Below, piece after piece: positions 2-25,295 of a stretch of DNA of 36,983 nt (positions are counted from its first letter, which is position 1; each line of letters starts with the position of its first letter). This DNA is from a virus: positions 1 through 36,983 of the IMG/VR virus record IMGVR_UViG_3300035099_000024; one strand, written 5' to 3'. Below the pieces are notes generated by a model. The model was given only the letters and a program-made list of their open reading frames with translations, was not told the origin of the DNA and ran no database searches. The position numbers and the translations under genes were made by a program.

Positions 2-1567
2 AACGGCGCCACTTCTGTCACTGGAACCAATACCTTTACCGTCGGCACCGGTCTTACCTCATTGGGCGGCGATCTGTCTGTCACCGGCCTGACAACTTTA
101 TCCAACGCTTCGGTATCGGGCAACTTTGAAGTCGGAACCGACAAGTTCAGAGTATACGGAGCAACCGGCAATCTGACTTCAGCGGGCATCGCTTCTTTCA
201 CCGGAACAGGCAGCAATTCCTTCTCGGGTTCAATCAATTCTCTCTTGGGCATCCATGGGGCGGGCAATGTCACCACCGAAGCCCAATTCCTGTCTTACGG
301 CACCGCTTCCAATTCATTCGCCGGTTCATTGGAACTGGCCAAGGGTTTGAGATTCGGCAATCTGACCCAGACGGAAAGCGGGATCAATTCATTCAACGGC
401 AACGTCGGCATCGGGACGACGGGACCAGGGGCGAAGTTGGATGTGGCAGGGTATATTAAAGCAGGAACTACTGGTAGTGGAGGAGTTCAATTTGCTGACC
501 AAAATGATGGGTCTAATTTATTTTATGCATATCATTATTTGAGCAAATTGAGGTTTTACTACGGCGGGTCAGATTTGGTAGCAATTCAATCAAACGGCAA
601 CGTCGGCATCGGGACGACGGGGCCCAGTGATAAGTTAACGGTATTGAATACAGGAAGTACACAAATATCTTTACAGGATAGGAGCGACCATTCTGAGAGA
701 GCACAACTTATGTATGATGATGGGGGTGCCACTAACTTTTATTTGTATAATAATTATGCCGGGTCTGCGTCTTCTGCAATAACTTTGGGTTTTGGTTCAA
801 CGTATGGAAGTAATGCAGTCATGACTTTATTACAGAGCGGCAACGTCGGCATCGGGACGACGGGACCAGTGGCAAAGCTGGAAGTTGCTTCGGGTGGAGA
901 TATTACAGGTTCTAATACCCACTTCAAGGTATCGGCTTTGGCGGGGTCAGTGTATGGTGCGAAAATGTCGCTAGATGCTACTGCTTTAATGGGTGGTAAT
1001 AATTGGGAATTATTTAGTTCAGCAACTGCCGCTGGTGAAGGTGGCGGCAAGTTAATTTTCTACGACAGAACGACTACTAAATATGGGCCAGTCATAGATA
1101 ATCAAGGCAACGTCGGCATCGGGACGACGGGGCCAGAGACACAACTTAAAATAGGAGGGGCTATCTCGTCGAGTTCTTTGGCTTTTGAAGTATTTGGATT
1201 AGCGAGTGCTTCAAATATATATGTTGGCGGCAATGTTTCAGCTTTAACCTACACCGACAGGACACCATATCCAAAGGACTTGCGGGAGGCCTATAATTCG
1301 GTTCTCTCCTTGGAAGGAAAGAATGGAAATGTTGACCACTCAAAACTTGACCCGTTTATCAAAGCGGAAAACGGGGAAAGGAATTTGTCAGCTCTCATTT
1401 CCGCTCAAAACGAGGTCATTAAAGATTTGAATAAAAGGGTTTCCGATTTGGAAACTAGAGTGGCCCTATTAGACGGCAAGACGCCGCCAGTTGGGGCGGT
1501 AACCCCGAAAACGGAGGTCAATTTTTGGGTGAAACTTTGGGAATTTATAATTAACCTGTTTAAATGA
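2..1567 (+). CDS. Tail-fibre protein, C-terminal part (5' end missing)
   Basis: The reading frame is open from base 2, so the gene is cut by the window edge; a TTG at 62 is only an internal codon. The protein is a low-complexity, Gly/Ser/Thr-rich fibre with four copies of a NVGIGTTGP motif (codons at about 401, 599, 842 and 1109) separated by unrelated 55-80 residue segments, as in phage fibres built of modular knitted domains. The C-terminus has a YTDRTPYPKDLREAYNSVL segment, then a coiled coil (ISAQNEVIKDLNKRVSDLET) and a hydrophobic tail (VNFWVKLWEFIINLFK). From base 398 onward it is the in-frame continuation of the gene starting at 36359, giving a predicted 555-aa protein. Bases 1-397 are an alternative N-terminal section. 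Role: probable receptor-binding or accessory fibre. The family is inferred from composition and repeats. Confidence 0.75.
   Translation, partial: NGATSVTGTNTFTVGTGLTSLGGDLSVTGLTTLSNASVSGNFEVGTDKFRVYGATGNLTSAGIASFTGTGSNSFSGSINSLLGIHGAGNVTTEAQFLSYGTASNSFAGSLELAKGLRFGNLTQTESGINSFNGNVGIGTTGPGAKLDVAGYIKAGTTGSGGVQFADQNDGSNLFYAYHYLSKLRFYYGGSDLVAIQSNGNVGIGTTGPSDKLTVLNTGSTQISLQDRSDHSERAQLMYDDGGATNFYLYNNYAGSASSAITLGFGSTYGSNAVMTLLQSGNVGIGTTGPVAKLEVASGGDITGSNTHFKVSALAGSVYGAKMSLDATALMGGNNWELFSSATAAGEGGGKLIFYDRTTTKYGPVIDNQGNVGIGTTGPETQLKIGGAISSSSLAFEVFGLASASNIYVGGNVSALTYTDRTPYPKDLREAYNSVLSLEGKNGNVDHSKLDPFIKAENGERNLSALISAQNEVIKDLNKRVSDLETRVALLDGKTPPVGAVTPKTEVNFWVKLWEFIINLFK
398..1135 (+). repeat. Four dispersed ~28-bp NVGIGTTGP repeats in the tail fibre
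   Basis: A near-identical 28-30 bp sequence beginning ggcaacgtcggcatcgggac starts at 398, 596, 839 and 1106. A fifth copy at 36857 equals the first one in the circular reading. The intervening segments of about 170-240 bp share no obvious similarity. DNA identity is higher than protein conservation would need, since the same codons recur each time. This fits homogenisation or recombination at the repeats. Confidence 0.85.
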
Positions 1568-1794
1568 GCGAAAATAACCAAAATGTAAAACTGTCAACCC
1601 TTCTTGCGATAATAGTGATTTTTATCGGTATTGTCGGGGCGGCCTTTACGCTGGTTTGGAATGAGCAAAAAGAAAACAGGGCAGAGGCCAATACCAGAAT
1701 GGATAAGTTGGAAACCAAATTTGACAGTAAGTTTGATGTTTTGAGCGGTAAGATAGATAGTTTTATAGGGCGTTACGATGGATATAGAAAATAA
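1564..1794 (+). CDS. Small membrane protein with coiled coil (lysis region)
   Basis: 76 aa. The start overlaps the tail-fibre stop (ATGA). One transmembrane helix at about residues 11-31 (LLAIIVIFIGIVGAAFTLVW) follows a short polar N-terminus. Behind it lies a charged heptad-like helix (about 33-70) with the repeated pattern KLETKFDSKFDVLSGKIDSF. The layout (membrane anchor plus coiled coil, directly before an endolysin) resembles small accessory lysis proteins, but no family is recognised. It could also anchor or assemble the preceding fibre. Confident as a gene, uncertain in function. Confidence 0.7.
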   Translation: MSENNQNVKLSTLLAIIVIFIGIVGAAFTLVWNEQKENRAEANTRMDKLETKFDSKFDVLSGKIDSFIGRYDGYRK

Positions 1795-1796
1795 AG

Positions 1797-3896
1797 ATGG
1801 AAGACAAATTTTGGTATAAACAACACGATGGGCTGATTGAGGAAAAGCCAAAACCGACTGATTTTATCAGAGGAGTCGGCCAGACCTTGCTTCAGCACGA
1901 AGATAGAAACACAATCGCCGATTGGACGCAGTTTTTGCCGTCAGGCGAAAGGCAAAGGTTCAGATTTATTGATGTGATGGCCTGCTTTCCTTACGACACA
2001 GAGGTTTTAATGGAAGATTTTACAACGAAAAGAATTTCTGACATTAGAGTCGGGGAATATGTTATTTCTCATATGGGACAGAAAAAAAGAGTTTTGGAGG
2101 TAATGAAAAGGAAATACGATTCTGAGATGTATCGCATAAAAATTATGGGCAACTATGATGAAATTTTATGCACGCCAGAACATCCGTTTTTAACAGATAT
2201 TGGATGGATTCCGGCGGATAAATTGACAACAGATTCAAGAGTTTTAATTCCTTTAACCGATAATTTAATTGCAGATAAAACCATAAAAGAGATAGAAAAG
2301 AATCCAGAATTTTTATGGTTATTAGGTTTTTATTTGGCGGAAGGGTCTATAACCATAAGGGAAAAGAAATTAAAAATACCAAAAAGGGCGGTCAATGGAG
2401 GCGGTAAGGGAAATGGAACCGTTATATTTTCAATTTCCAAAAAAGAAACTGATTTTGCAAATAAAATTATTGATATCGCCAAAAGGCTTTTTAATGTTGA
2501 TTTTCATATTTACGAAAAGAAAACTAGTAAGGGAATGAGTGTTTATGGCTATTCGGACTATTTGGCAAAGTTACTAATAGAACTTGGAGGGCAATATTCT
2601 GACAAAAAAAGAATAAACCCAAGGTTAATGTTCTTAGAACCCAAACTCCAATTAGAAATTTTTAAGGGCTGGAAGGATGGCGACGGTTATTCAGATAACA
2701 AAAAAGAAACTATTATCTCCTGTTCAAAGGAATTAGTTGGGCAAATGCACAGGATACTTCTTCGTAATAGAATTAAGTCCTGTATTTACAAAAGAAATGC
2801 TTATGGAATTCATAAAGAAGCCTTTGACCTGAATATTTATGGAGATGGAGATAATGGATTTAAGGATAACTATTTAACAAGAAAGGTGTCCTCAATAGAA
2901 GTGGTAAAAAACCCCAAACAAAGAGATTCTAAAAGTAGAGTAAAAAATGTTTACAATCTTGAAGTAGAAGACGACCATTCATATATTGTTAATACGGTTG
3001 CTGTTCATAACTGCGTAACCTTCAGCGCGTTAAACTGCGTAGAGACCCAAGCCAAGTGGATGATTAAAAATAAACTCTTACCCGAAGGCACTTACAACAA
3101 ACTGGTTGAATTGGGATTTATAGTTAACGGCGAATTTAACGCTTCAGACCGTTTTACGGCAAAGATGTCGGGGACGACCGAACAAGGAAATACCTTGACC
3201 AAGGTTTGGGAAAGTATAAGGAAGGACGGACTTTTACCCGAAGGAGATTGGCCGGCAAATGAGGATTTTTCGTGGAACGGCTATTATGCCGCCATCCCTG
3301 ATGAGTTAAAGCAGAAAGCCAAAGAAATTCTTAAACTATTCAAGTTTGAATATGAACTCATAAGCCCTATAACTATCCCCGTCCTGAAGGCCGAACTGAG
3401 ACACGCGCCGTTGCAGATTACGACGGGAGTTTGCCCGGGCTGGGATAATCCCCCCGTTCCCGTATGCGGTCTGGGGGCTTCCCACGCCACAATGCTTTAC
3501 AAGGTTGATTCCGATAACGGGTTGGAAGATTTTGACCAATACGCGCCTTTTCAAAAGAAACTGAATCCGGGATATAGGGTTTATTCCTGCCTAAAGGGCG
3601 TAGTCAGCCCGATTAAACCAGGTGAAGTTTATCCGTTTCATTACACGTTCAGTAATAATCTTTATTGGGGCCAAGCCTCTCCCGAAATCGTAGCCCTCCA
3701 ACGGATTCTGGTTCAAGATGGCGAATTAAGGCAAGGTGATTTCAAGAGTGGAACTTATGATAACGTAACCAAGGAGGCCGTGTTCGCTTTTCAGAAACGG
3801 TATATGGTCGCTTCTTGGTGGGAACTTTTATTCGTTCGCGGGCGATGGATTGGCCCGGCCACTCGTCGCAAGCTGAACGAACTTTACGGACTATGA
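1797..3896 (+). CDS. Endolysin: papain-like cysteine peptidase with peptidoglycan-binding domain, split by an intein
   Basis: 699-aa precursor; removing the intein (residues 63-405) leaves 356 aa. The catalytic region reads VMA-CVTFSALNC across the junction. C-x-x-F-S-A aligns with the CWAFSA active-site helix of papain-fold peptidases, making Cys406 the likely nucleophile, and His563 (GASHATMLY) the likely general base. Residues about 625-697 (ALQRILVQDGELRQGDF ... ATRRKLNELYG) form a PG_binding_1-type cell-wall domain. The protein would cleave wall cross-bridges at the end of infection. A holin-like gene follows with an ATGA overlap. Activity should depend on intein excision, because the intein sits directly before the nucleophile. 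The family is recognised from motifs; the exact bond cleaved is unknown. Confidence 0.8.
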   Translation: MEDKFWYKQHDGLIEEKPKPTDFIRGVGQTLLQHEDRNTIADWTQFLPSGERQRFRFIDVMACFPYDTEVLMEDFTTKRISDIRVGEYVISHMGQKKRVLEVMKRKYDSEMYRIKIMGNYDEILCTPEHPFLTDIGWIPADKLTTDSRVLIPLTDNLIADKTIKEIEKNPEFLWLLGFYLAEGSITIREKKLKIPKRAVNGGGKGNGTVIFSISKKETDFANKIIDIAKRLFNVDFHIYEKKTSKGMSVYGYSDYLAKLLIELGGQYSDKKRINPRLMFLEPKLQLEIFKGWKDGDGYSDNKKETIISCSKELVGQMHRILLRNRIKSCIYKRNAYGIHKEAFDLNIYGDGDNGFKDNYLTRKVSSIEVVKNPKQRDSKSRVKNVYNLEVEDDHSYIVNTVAVHNCVTFSALNCVETQAKWMIKNKLLPEGTYNKLVELGFIVNGEFNASDRFTAKMSGTTEQGNTLTKVWESIRKDGLLPEGDWPANEDFSWNGYYAAIPDELKQKAKEILKLFKFEYELISPITIPVLKAELRHAPLQITTGVCPGWDNPPVPVCGLGASHATMLYKVDSDNGLEDFDQYAPFQKKLNPGYRVYSCLKGVVSPIKPGEVYPFHYTFSNNLYWGQASPEIVALQRILVQDGELRQGDFKSGTYDNVTKEAVFAFQKRYMVASWWELLFVRGRWIGPATRRKLNELYGL
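1983..3011 (+). mobile_element. Intein with LAGLIDADG homing endonuclease in the endolysin
   Basis: 343 aa (precursor residues 63-405). Block A starts at Cys63 (CFPYDTEVL) and block B contains CTPEHPF with the TxxH histidine. The endonuclease has two LAGLIDADG-like motifs (LLGFYLAEGS and FKGWKDGDGYSD). Block F is VYNLEVEDDHSYIVN and block G ends AVHN, followed by the +1 residue Cys. All splicing residues (Cys1, block B His, penultimate His, terminal Asn, +1 Cys) are present, so it should be active. The insertion site codes for the catalytic cysteine of the host protein. Its A/T-rich sequence differs from the flanking extein and fits horizontal entry. Confidence 0.93.
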
Positions 3897-4111
3897 ACAG
3901 CGATTTATTTAAGTTAAACCTAACGGACGTAGCCAAAGGGCTTATCGTGGCGGTTCTGTCGGCCGTCTTATCGGCGCTTTATCAAGCGCTTACGGCGCAG
4001 GCGGTTATTGACCCGAAGCAGTTATTGCTGGTTGCGGCCACTGCTTGCGTAGGTTATTTGCTGAAGAACTTTTTTTCTACCCCAGACGGCAAATTTGGGG
4101 GCGTCTTGTAG
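3893..4111 (+). CDS. Holin-like small membrane protein
   Basis: 72 aa with the ATG overlapping the endolysin stop (ATGA); an upstream in-frame start at 3815 is rejected because it would run deep into the endolysin. Two hydrophobic helices are visible (about residues 14-34, KGLIVAVLSAVLSALYQAL, and about 45-62, KQLLLVAATACVGYLLKNFF) separated by a short loop. This size, the two helices and the position next to an endolysin match phage holins, which form the inner-membrane lesion that times lysis. No specific holin family is assigned. Confidence 0.7.
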   Translation: MNSDLFKLNLTDVAKGLIVAVLSAVLSALYQALTAQAVIDPKQLLLVAATACVGYLLKNFFSTPDGKFGGVL

Positions 4112-4190: not shown

Positions 4191-4664
4191 TTGCTGGCCA
4201 TCATTGTATTTGCCTCTAGAGTGGAAGGGAAGAGCAAAACGATACAATATACCTATAACGACCTCTTCATTCAACCTAGGGCATTACAGAGCGTCAAAAC
4301 AGGCGTTCCCAGCGTAATATCCGGCGGGGATGGAAATACATATTTAGTTGCCTCTACATTAACTCTTGAACCTCGTGAATACCTGAAACGGCTCGCGCCG
4401 GAGATTTTTAGTTTGGCGAATAAAATTGTTATAGCCGAATCAAACTGGCATCCGACCGCCCATAACAAAACCACTTCGGCTTCGGGTTTGTTCCAGTTTC
4501 TTGATTCAACTTTCCAACACTATTGCATAGACAAATATCACTTCACCGATACGATGGCCGACAAAGACGATCCCTATATTCAAATCAAATGCGCCGTTGA
4601 GATGATTAAGTATGAACCGAACGGATTAAACCATTGGCTGGCTAGCGCTGATTATTGGAAATAA
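4191..4664 (+). CDS. Lytic transglycosylase (SLT-like)
   Basis: About 157 aa from a TTG; the true start is unclear because the open frame extends upstream to 4143, and translating from 4152 gives a textbook signal-anchor (RTFVIIILSLLWLLAIIVF) but no ATG. The second half carries the goose-lysozyme/SLT signature: a catalytic Glu in KIVIAESNW, then the ASGLFQFLDSTF motif, and a C-terminal NHWLASADYW resembling the usual substrate-cleft strand. It would cut the glycan strands of peptidoglycan, either during lysis with the neighbouring endolysin or as a virion entry enzyme. The N-terminal hydrophobic segment suggests export or membrane anchoring. Family call is firm, start is not. Confidence 0.8.
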   Translation: MLAIIVFASRVEGKSKTIQYTYNDLFIQPRALQSVKTGVPSVISGGDGNTYLVASTLTLEPREYLKRLAPEIFSLANKIVIAESNWHPTAHNKTTSASGLFQFLDSTFQHYCIDKYHFTDTMADKDDPYIQIKCAVEMIKYEPNGLNHWLASADYWK

Positions 4665-22380: not shown

Positions 22381-22555
22381 GAGGGGGATTATAGAGTTAG
22401 AGGCCTCAATTGCCCATCATCAGGGGCTTTTGGATTATGAAAGAGAATCTTTAAGCCAGAAACAAATTGAACAGTATGAGTTGGCGATTAAGTCAGCCCA
22501 GGAGCAAATTAAGACCAATGAGGATTTTATAAGGTATGTGGAACCGCTGATATGA
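22304..22555 (+). CDS. Hypothetical coiled-coil protein
   Basis: 83 aa from ATG 22304, with aaggaag 7 nt upstream; it overlaps the previous gene by 77 nt. Helical (ILAVKRGIIELEASIAHHQG, YELAIKSAQEQIKTNEDFI). Start uncertain, since the frame is open from 22229. Ends in an ATGA overlap with the first glycosyltransferase. Confidence 0.5.
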   Translation: MLKVIWVLLFGNFRQKILQQKILAVKRGIIELEASIAHHQGLLDYERESLSQKQIEQYELAIKSAQEQIKTNEDFIRYVEPLI

Positions 22556-23532
22556 GGGTTGTAGGTTATGGAATTTGCGGAAGGGATGAGGCGAATAAAT
22601 ACCTTAAGCAAACGCTTGAGGAGTTCAAACGGCTTTGTGACGATACGATTATCCTTTTGAATGGCGCTGGGAAGGAAGAACGCTCTTTAATACGCTCCTA
22701 CGGCTTCAAAATTGCCCAAGACGACAGGGAATGGGGGAAAATGCAGAATACCATCAAACAGGATTTTGTAACCAACCACGTTCAAAAATTGACACCCGAC
22801 TGGCTTATATGTCTGGATATGGATGAGGTCTTTGAGCCGAAGTTCACAAGGCAGGAACTTGAAAAGTTAACGGAGGACGGCTGGGCGTTTCATTTCTATA
22901 TCGTGAACTTATGGGGAGAAGGGTATAAGCCCAGGCGATGCTTCTGGAATGTGCGGATGTGGAAGTGGACCGGGAATACCGAGTTCCTGAACCGTCCGCT
23001 CCATCCCGGGCTTGCGCCGAAGTGGGCCTATATGATAAATCAATACGCCCCGTTTATTGTCAGGCATTACGGATTAAAGGAAAAGAAAGACAGATTGGCG
23101 AAGATTGCGAGATACAAGAAATACGACCCCAACGCCAAATTTTGTTCACGAGAATACTATAACGATTTGCAGACAGACGACTTCGCGCCTTATGACGAAG
23201 AGAAGGTTCATAGGGAGGTTGACGCCGAAGTCAAGAAATACAAACCCAAAATTAAAAAACAACCGATTATGCCTATTAAAAAAGATTTTAGCTTAATCAG
23301 AAGAATTAACCGCAGAACCGGGGAGGAGTTCACTTTTGACGTTGCCACAAATGAAGTGCCGAGGTATTTAAGCCAGTCTGGTCCCGAGTATTCGTTTGAG
23401 TTGGTGGGAAAAGTTGAAGGAGTTACGGACGAGATTGAAAAACTATTTGAAGAGCCCAAGGAACCCAAGGAACCCAAGGCCGAGGTTCCTCTAAAGCCAG
23501 TCAAAAAGGTTCGTGGTAAAAAAGCAAAATAA
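22552..23532 (+). CDS. Glycosyltransferase, GT2-like
   Basis: 326 aa. GT-A-type layout: N-terminal RVVGYGICGRDEANKYLKQT, then DWLICLDMDEVFEP (the D-x-D sugar-nucleotide site), and a conserved-looking IVRHYGLKEKKDR. The C-terminal ~100 residues are a basic/Pro-rich extension not needed for catalysis (EEPKEPKEPKAEVPLKPVKK). First of a four-gene sugar cassette in the structural operon; it may glycosylate virion proteins or alter the host surface. Substrate unknown. Confidence 0.75.
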   Translation: MRVVGYGICGRDEANKYLKQTLEEFKRLCDDTIILLNGAGKEERSLIRSYGFKIAQDDREWGKMQNTIKQDFVTNHVQKLTPDWLICLDMDEVFEPKFTRQELEKLTEDGWAFHFYIVNLWGEGYKPRRCFWNVRMWKWTGNTEFLNRPLHPGLAPKWAYMINQYAPFIVRHYGLKEKKDRLAKIARYKKYDPNAKFCSREYYNDLQTDDFAPYDEEKVHREVDAEVKKYKPKIKKQPIMPIKKDFSLIRRINRRTGEEFTFDVATNEVPRYLSQSGPEYSFELVGKVEGVTDEIEKLFEEPKEPKEPKAEVPLKPVKKVRGKKAK

Positions 23533-24601
23533 AATTATTCCTCTTTTTTGGCCCTTCATTCCTAAAGAAGACATTTTAAGGGAAATTTCTAATACACTAA
23601 ATTCGCGCTGGCTTGGCCAAGGCCCCAAAGTTGACCTCTTTGAAAAGGAATTTGGCAAAAAGATGGGTTATAAATATCCCCTTTTCGTTAATTCCGGCAC
23701 ATCGGCGCTTGAACTCGCCTATCACTTAATTGGACTTAAGAAGGGCGATGAAGTGATTGTGCCGGTTTTAGATTGCACGGCCGGACAGATGGGGCTTTTA
23801 CGGCGGGGAGTTAAGATTGTTTTTGCCGATATAGATGAGAACCTGACCATAGACCCTGAAGATGTTAGAAAAAAGATAACCAAAAAGACAAAAGCAGTAG
23901 TCGGCGTTCACTTGGGCGGCATTCACTTTAACCCGGAACTTTACAAGGTTATCGGGGACATTCCTCTTGTCGTTGATTCATCCCAGTATCACGCCAAAAC
24001 AAGGGGAGATTACATCTGCTATTCTTTTCAGGCGATTAAGCATATCACCACCTGCGATGGCGGAATGCTGGTTTTGAATAACAAGGAAGAATATATAAGA
24101 GCCAAGAAACTCCGCTGGTTTGGAATAGACAGGGAACTTAAAGCTAAAAAAAACTATCAAGCATGGGAACGGCGCGAGATGACCTTTGACATTGAAGAGG
24201 CGGGATATAAGTATCAGCCGACTGATATTGACGCCTGTTTCGGGCTGGCTTCTTTGCCTTATCTGGATAAAGTAATTAAATACCGCCAAAGATTGGTTAA
24301 GCTTTATAAGAAGTTATTGCCCAAAGAGGTTGAAGTTGTGGCTAGAGATACTTGCTGGCTTATGGGAATTCTGGTGGACAGGCGGGACGAACTGGCCGAG
24401 TTCCTGACCAAAAGCGGGATTGAAAACAATTTGGTGCACTTAAGAAATGACCTGTTTTCGGTTTTCAAGAAATTTAAGTCAAGTTGCCCCAATATGAATA
24501 GTTTAGAGCCGAAATACCTATATTTACCCCTGAACTCCAAAATAACCCCTTCTGACGTGAAATTTGTATGTAAAAAGATAAACGAGTTTTACAATGGCTG
24601 A
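23513..24601 (+). CDS. DegT/DnrJ/EryC1/StrS-type sugar aminotransferase
   Basis: 362 aa from a GTG overlapping the previous gene by 20 nt. PLP fold: N-terminal SRWLGQGPKVDLFE, VNSGTSALELAYHLIG (60-75), DSSQ near Asp155, and the Schiff-base Lys176 in CYSFQAIKHITTCDGG. Such enzymes add an amino group to keto-sugar nucleotides, the step that makes amino-deoxy sugars. Its presence argues that the cassette builds an unusual sugar, with precursors from the host. Slightly short of the family norm but complete. Confidence 0.9.
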   Translation: MVKKQNKIIPLFWPFIPKEDILREISNTLNSRWLGQGPKVDLFEKEFGKKMGYKYPLFVNSGTSALELAYHLIGLKKGDEVIVPVLDCTAGQMGLLRRGVKIVFADIDENLTIDPEDVRKKITKKTKAVVGVHLGGIHFNPELYKVIGDIPLVVDSSQYHAKTRGDYICYSFQAIKHITTCDGGMLVLNNKEEYIRAKKLRWFGIDRELKAKKNYQAWERREMTFDIEEAGYKYQPTDIDACFGLASLPYLDKVIKYRQRLVKLYKKLLPKEVEVVARDTCWLMGILVDRRDELAEFLTKSGIENNLVHLRNDLFSVFKKFKSSCPNMNSLEPKYLYLPLNSKITPSDVKFVCKKINEFYNG

Positions 24602-25295
24602 CCTTAAAGAAAGAATCAAAAAAATAATAGAACTTTCAAAAATCCCGATGAAGACCGAAGCCGAAATGCGGATGGTTGAAATTATTGTTTTGAAGTTCCG
24701 CGACCCCGAGGTGGAGGTGGAATGCGTTAAAAAGATAATTGAAAACACCAGCTGGCCGTTTAAGCTGAATGTTTATGACAACCGCCAAAATACCGCCAAT
24801 ACCGCTAAAATCTGGAATAAACTGATTAGGGATTCTACCTGCGATTATGTGATGTTTATTGACTCGGACGCCTTTGTTCCAAAGACAACTCCCTGCTGGC
24901 TTACGAGGATGATGGAAAGTTTTAAGCACCCCGATTGCCAAGTGGTCGTTCCGGTATCAAACAATGTGGGCGGGAATTATCAAAAAGTTTTGAGAGCCGA
25001 GCCCTATCCTTCGGAGACTCTGCACAACTCGGTTTGGTCGGGATTTTGCTGGCTATTTAAGAAGTCAGTTATAGAAAAAGCGGGGTGGCTTGATGAACGA
25101 TTTTATTTTTATGGGCAAGATTCGGAATGGGCGGCAAGAATCGCCAAAAAGGGCATTCATTCCTATATGCGAAAAGACGTATTCATAGAGCATAAGGCCG
25201 GATATTCGGGCAAGAAAGCCGATAAAGAAGGAACCTTTGACCGCGAAGCCGACAAAACAATGGCTCGTTTGCTTTATCTAAAAGAGACACAATGA
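24594..25295 (+). CDS. Glycosyltransferase family 2
   Basis: 233 aa overlapping the aminotransferase by 8 nt. LNVYDNRQNTANTAKIWN, then the D-x-D site YVMFIDSDAFVPK, and the acceptor-side motif GWLDERFYFYGQDSEWAARI with a late His (VFIEHKAGYSG). It is a compact GT-A catalytic domain that transfers sugar from a nucleotide donor. Works with the neighbouring aminotransferase and glycosyltransferases. Confidence 0.85.
   Translation: MADLKERIKKIIELSKIPMKTEAEMRMVEIIVLKFRDPEVEVECVKKIIENTSWPFKLNVYDNRQNTANTAKIWNKLIRDSTCDYVMFIDSDAFVPKTTPCWLTRMMESFKHPDCQVVVPVSNNVGGNYQKVLRAEPYPSETLHNSVWSGFCWLFKKSVIEKAGWLDERFYFYGQDSEWAARIAKKGIHSYMRKDVFIEHKAGYSGKKADKEGTFDREADKTMARLLYLKETQ

Follow-up and report, generated by a model that had tools for sequence, protein, structure and literature searches.

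The best explanation for the interrupted gene described here is that a homing LAGLIDADG intein invaded the gene for a papain-fold cysteine hydrolase immediately before the codon of its catalytic cysteine, and that the intein is removed by constitutive splicing; we place the probability of this reading at roughly 0.8. The window (the whole stretch of DNA that was analyzed) is a 36,983-base IMG/VR virus record with terminase and tail-fiber-like genes and is a tailed-phage genome. Within it, an open reading frame (ORF) on the plus strand (positions 1797 to 3896) encodes, in an uninterrupted frame, a precursor of 699 amino acids. Removal of the intein leaves a protein of 356 amino acids, the length that an earlier sequence-only reading of this DNA had given. 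Precursor Cys406, the +1 splicing residue, becomes Cys63 of this spliced protein; in mature-enzyme numbering, the insertion point falls between Ala62 and Cys63.

The precursor contains an intein with intact splicing and endonuclease motifs

The intein spans positions 1983 to 3011 (plus strand) and comprises 343 amino acids, from Cys1 to Asn343, corresponding to Cys63 through Asn405 of the precursor. The interval of 1983 to 3014 proposed by the sequence-only reading was accurate except at its end, as the last codon (3012 to 3014) belongs to the +1 residue, Cys406. The intein is matched by Pfam Intein_splicing (E = 8e-12) and by the NCBIfam models for intein N- and C-terminal regions (TIGR01445, E = 6e-7; TIGR01443, E = 3e-6). 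Splicing blocks A (CF, at residue 1), B (TPEH, residues 64 to 67), F (VYNLEV), and G (HN at 342 to 343, then Cys at +1) are all intact, and the intein thus has the residues of a class 1 intein, namely an N-terminal Cys, TxxH, a C-terminal HN, and Cys at +1. Two LAGLIDADG motifs, both with acidic residues, identify the endonuclease: LLGFYLAEG at 2319 to 2345 and FKGWKDGDG at 2661 to 2687, the latter within a Pfam LAGLIDADG_3 match (E = 1e-6 over precursor residues 285 to 337). Judging from these canonical residues, the intein is predicted to splice.

Base composition differs between the intein and its host gene, with a GC content of 32.8% versus 45 to 47% in the exteins and a GC3 of 29% versus 50 to 52%, which fits an element acquired from elsewhere. 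The window record contains no second intein N-terminal region, and our search of viral contigs found no close relatives of this intein; similar phage inteins, with up to 31% identity, sit in other genes. Among the 50 records searched, the only other intein is an apparent HNH-type element (GEDHC...IIHN, then SADS) in a terminase-large-subunit-like ORF (L098, 613 to 2952, minus strand) of the record that also holds relative L037.

The insertion site lies directly before an invariant cysteine

Searches with the spliced protein returned nothing from viral contigs (with short patterns), phage records, or PDB, and a genome search yielded one weak locus (L003). We then recovered the family from viral contigs using DNA patterns for the active-site motif DxxxCV[ST]FSAxN, followed by a profile-guided scan. 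This approach gave 68 loci, from which 63 distinct viral intein-free proteins were compared; the closest share 46 to 48% identity with the spliced window protein. One search pattern included the cysteine itself, so the 30 of 63 relatives lacking that pattern were rechecked separately.

The sequence-only reading had proposed aligning the spliced protein to intein-free relatives, and this alignment is unambiguous: all 63 relatives are continuous across the insertion site, none carries the intein, and every one has Cys63, including all 30 found without the cysteine-covering pattern. The alignment also delimits the exteins. The N-extein (1797 to 1982) provides the first 62 residues, ending at Ala62, and aligns to the relatives without a break; the C-extein (3012 to 3893) provides most of the papain-like domain and a C-terminal peptidoglycan-binding-like domain. 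Three further residues are invariant (63/63 each): Glu51 and Gln53, whose codons lie within 1947 to 1955, and His220 (precursor His563; 3483 to 3485), the predicted catalytic histidine. By analogy with papain Gln19, Gln53 is likely the oxyanion-hole glutamine. Asp237 (precursor Asp580; 3534 to 3536), the predicted third catalytic residue, which replaces the Asn of papain, is present in 62 relatives and is Asn in the remaining one. No close pair of an intein-bearing and an intein-free gene was found among the relatives. One relative (L097:5566-6726) has approximately 29 extra residues just after the start of the active-site helix, a segment too short for an intein.

Cys63 is the predicted nucleophile of a papain-fold enzyme

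To place these residues, we compared the family profile with PDB sequences. It matched ficins and falcipains (best E = 0.002), aligning Cys63 with the Cys of CGSCW (papain Cys25) and His220 with the histidine of the cysteine-protease HAV motif. A fold model of an intein-free relative (L010, 46 to 48% identical to the window protein; pLDDT 88) resembles procathepsin X, xylellain, and propapain with Z scores of approximately 20 (20.2 to 1deu and 20.1 to 3ois) and a Foldseek E value of about 1e-6; in this model Cys55 opens a helix spanning residues 55 to 73. In a model of the window precursor built with the relatives, the extein is folded and matches xylellain with a Z of 20.4, and a helix (residues 406 to 424) starts at Cys406 (codon 3012 to 3014). 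The intein, for which no homologues were supplied, has a pLDDT under 50 in this model, and its geometry there is uninformative.

The enzyme thus has the features of clan CA peptidases: a papain fold with Cys at the N terminus of the central helix and a conserved Cys, His, and Asn/Asp together with a preceding Gln. It shares with papain, ficin, cathepsin X, and xylellain the fold (Z of about 20), a Cys that opens the central helix, a His in the beta half, and a Gln before the Cys. It differs from the papain family in sequence (only 9 to 18% identity), in the spacing of the Gln (10 residues before the Cys versus 6 in papain), and in having Asp rather than Asn as the third catalytic residue; in addition, part of the phage family carries a C-terminal peptidoglycan-binding-like domain, unlike these four enzymes. 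The window protein has no match to Pfam Peptidase_C1 (PF00112), and three relatives reach E = 2e-5 at best. Although PF00112 does not assign it, the enzyme looks like a C1 peptidase and should work like one.

Position, conservation, profile, and fold agree in supporting Cys63 as the predicted papain nucleophile. Papains of known structure are only weakly similar in sequence (E = 0.002), and this assignment comes mostly from the fold model and conservation. Cys71, eight residues after Cys63, had been named by the sequence-only reading as the competing candidate; it is Cys in only 24 of the 63 relatives, and we rejected it. Together, the intein matches, the invariance of Cys63, the ficin alignment, and the fold models bear out the claim that the intein sits exactly at the predicted catalytic cysteine.

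The host gene probably encodes a wall-degrading lysis enzyme

The sequence-only reading had called the host protein an endolysin. Among 64 family proteins scanned, 13 carry PG_binding_1 (up to E = 2.5e-13), two carry an M15 peptidase, and one carries CHAP, all of them modules characteristic of wall enzymes. Small hydrophobic holin-like ORFs begin directly 3′ of the gene in 29 of 53 relatives, compared with 9.4% at random positions. In addition, papain-family catalytic domains (N5) are known in mycobacteriophage lysins (PMC3314691). As the window enzyme may do, mycobacteriophage Lysin A proteins (with N5 papain-like or N4 domains) combine a papain-family domain in a lysis enzyme with a C-terminal wall-binding part; unlike the window gene, none of 224 mycobacteriophage endolysins is interrupted by an intron or intein (PMC3314691). 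The window protein's own PG_binding_1-like C-terminal domain (3681 to 3803) falls below the Pfam cut-off (E = 0.0017 to 0.004; 18 to 19 bits versus a cut-off of 23), and we regard the endolysin label as plausible.

The papain-like gene is flanked on both sides by small hydrophobic ORFs with weak PHROG matches. The upstream ORF (1564 to 1794, plus strand) has one strong hydrophobic segment (KD19 maximum 2.95) and is weakly holin- or spanin-like, with PHROG lysis matches of only E = 0.01 to 0.03. The downstream ORF (3893 to 4111, plus strand; KD19 maximum 2.0) is weakly holin-like, and its homologue lies directly 3′ of the papain-like gene in one relative (L033). Farther downstream, a plus-strand ORF at 4191 to 4664 encodes an SLT lytic transglycosylase (Pfam SLT, E = 4e-9), a second probable wall enzyme. 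It has a hydrophobic N terminus and begins approximately 300 nucleotides 3′ of the intein-bearing gene.

Papain-fold enzymes are mostly proteases. A possible but doubtful alternative is therefore that the window enzyme is a virion-associated or other protease, acting for example in entry or processing, with the lysin encoded by the SLT gene or another gene. The position of the gene after a tail-fiber-like ORF and the presence of a separate transglycosylase 300 nucleotides downstream would suit such a protease, whereas the family fusions to wall modules, the excess of holin-like ORFs 3′ of the relatives, and the papain-family domains of mycobacteriophage lysins (N5; PMC3314691) argue against it. 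We conclude that the papain-like enzyme is probably an endolysin, or wall-degrading enzyme of a lysis module; the SLT transglycosylase may itself be the lysin or may share this work. Wall hydrolysis by the spliced enzyme is inferred from these associations.

Other features of the window were noted in passing. The tail-fiber-like ORF (62 to 1567) contains several copies of a near-identical NVGIGTTGP unit at irregular spacing. Glycosyltransferase and aminotransferase genes at 22552 to 25295 perhaps serve surface sugar modification. PADLOC gave no match.

Homing into conserved DNA would explain the position of the intein

Across the relatives, the 24-bp window centered on the insertion site ranks 1st of 1045 for base conservation, and it ranks 2nd of 1045 when the comparison is restricted to the 30 relatives whose recovery did not depend on the site. 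Few parts of the gene are thus as well conserved at the DNA level as the insertion site, a result that fits homing-site choice. Active-site DNA is conserved and is hence a reliable target for homing, and an intein there is costly to lose; this would account for an intein placed just before the catalytic cysteine. By chance, 40 Cys, Ser, or Thr residues, 5 of them Cys, would offer splice-competent positions; chance is not the right null, however, because inteins are known to favor active sites. Native inteins lie on average 8.3 Å from active-site residues, compared with 21.1 Å for other Cys/Ser/Thr sites (PMC3359363), and in phages, inteins are concentrated at conserved motifs (PMC5050341). The striking position is therefore the expected one for inteins, and homing would explain it without any regulatory role.

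The closest parallels are the mycobacteriophage inteins in TerL, a RecB-like nuclease, thymidylate synthase, and other proteins (PMC5050341), which are likewise full-length inteins at or next to catalytic motifs and whose positions are attributed to homing into conserved DNA. For several of its groups, that study states that all have roles in DNA modification or nucleotide metabolism, whereas the host described here is papain-like and probably wall degrading; unlike those inteins, the window intein has a +1 residue that is also the predicted nucleophile.

The intein most likely splices constitutively

We propose that a homing intein carrying a LAGLIDADG endonuclease invaded the papain-fold hydrolase gene and that the precursor would be processed by established intein chemistry, namely transesterification, Asn cyclization, and an S-to-N shift. 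Cys406, as the +1 residue, would take the N-extein in the transesterification step, and Asn cyclization and the S-to-N shift would then leave an ordinary peptide bond between Ala62 and Cys63. Once the intein has left, Cys63 would act as the nucleophile of the hydrolase with His220 and Asp237. The sequence-only reading held that the enzyme is inactive until this occurs, and we agree that this is very likely: before splicing, 343 residues separate the cysteine from the part of the oxyanion hole that Gln53 would supply, and the precursor should therefore be inactive.

That reading also suggested that the splicing rate could set a delay on lysis. If the intein were such a posttranslational timer or zymogen switch, slow or condition-dependent splicing would delay activation of the lysis enzyme and set lysis time; one cysteine would serve splicing and then hydrolysis, and splicing would determine when the wall enzyme becomes active. 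Insertion at the nucleophile does make activity depend on splicing. However, lysis time is normally set by holins, all canonical splicing residues are present, nothing points to slow or conditional splicing, the absence of the intein from all 63 relatives indicates that the enzyme family does not need a timer, and the downstream SLT transglycosylase provides a second wall enzyme. Conditional splicing is described for other inteins (for example, in PMC6195587 and PMC7360933), whereas phage TerL inteins near active motifs, at sites similar to this one, are reported to splice quickly (PMC5050341). Since homing already explains the position, we consider a timer very improbable, and the intein as a lysis regulator is speculation.

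Inteins do decay. That this one has lost the ability to splice, so that the enzyme of the window genome is dead, is nonetheless the least probable reading considered, as nothing beyond this general tendency favors it and the uninterrupted frame, the intact blocks A, B, F, and G, the two LAGLIDADG motifs with their acidic residues, and the retention of all conserved residues in the extein argue against it.

Implications for intein hosts

Active-site inteins are familiar, and this kind of system is known as well; what appears to be new is the host enzyme. In the open-access literature, the scope of our survey, we found no precedent for an endolysin or papain-like phage enzyme that carries an intein. 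The gene adds a probable lysis enzyme to the range of intein hosts and illustrates how homing inteins come to occupy the most conserved DNA of a gene. It also offers a clean case of one residue predicted to perform two successive nucleophilic jobs, in a system that is small and testable, since the wall hydrolysis of the precursor can be set against that of the mature enzyme.
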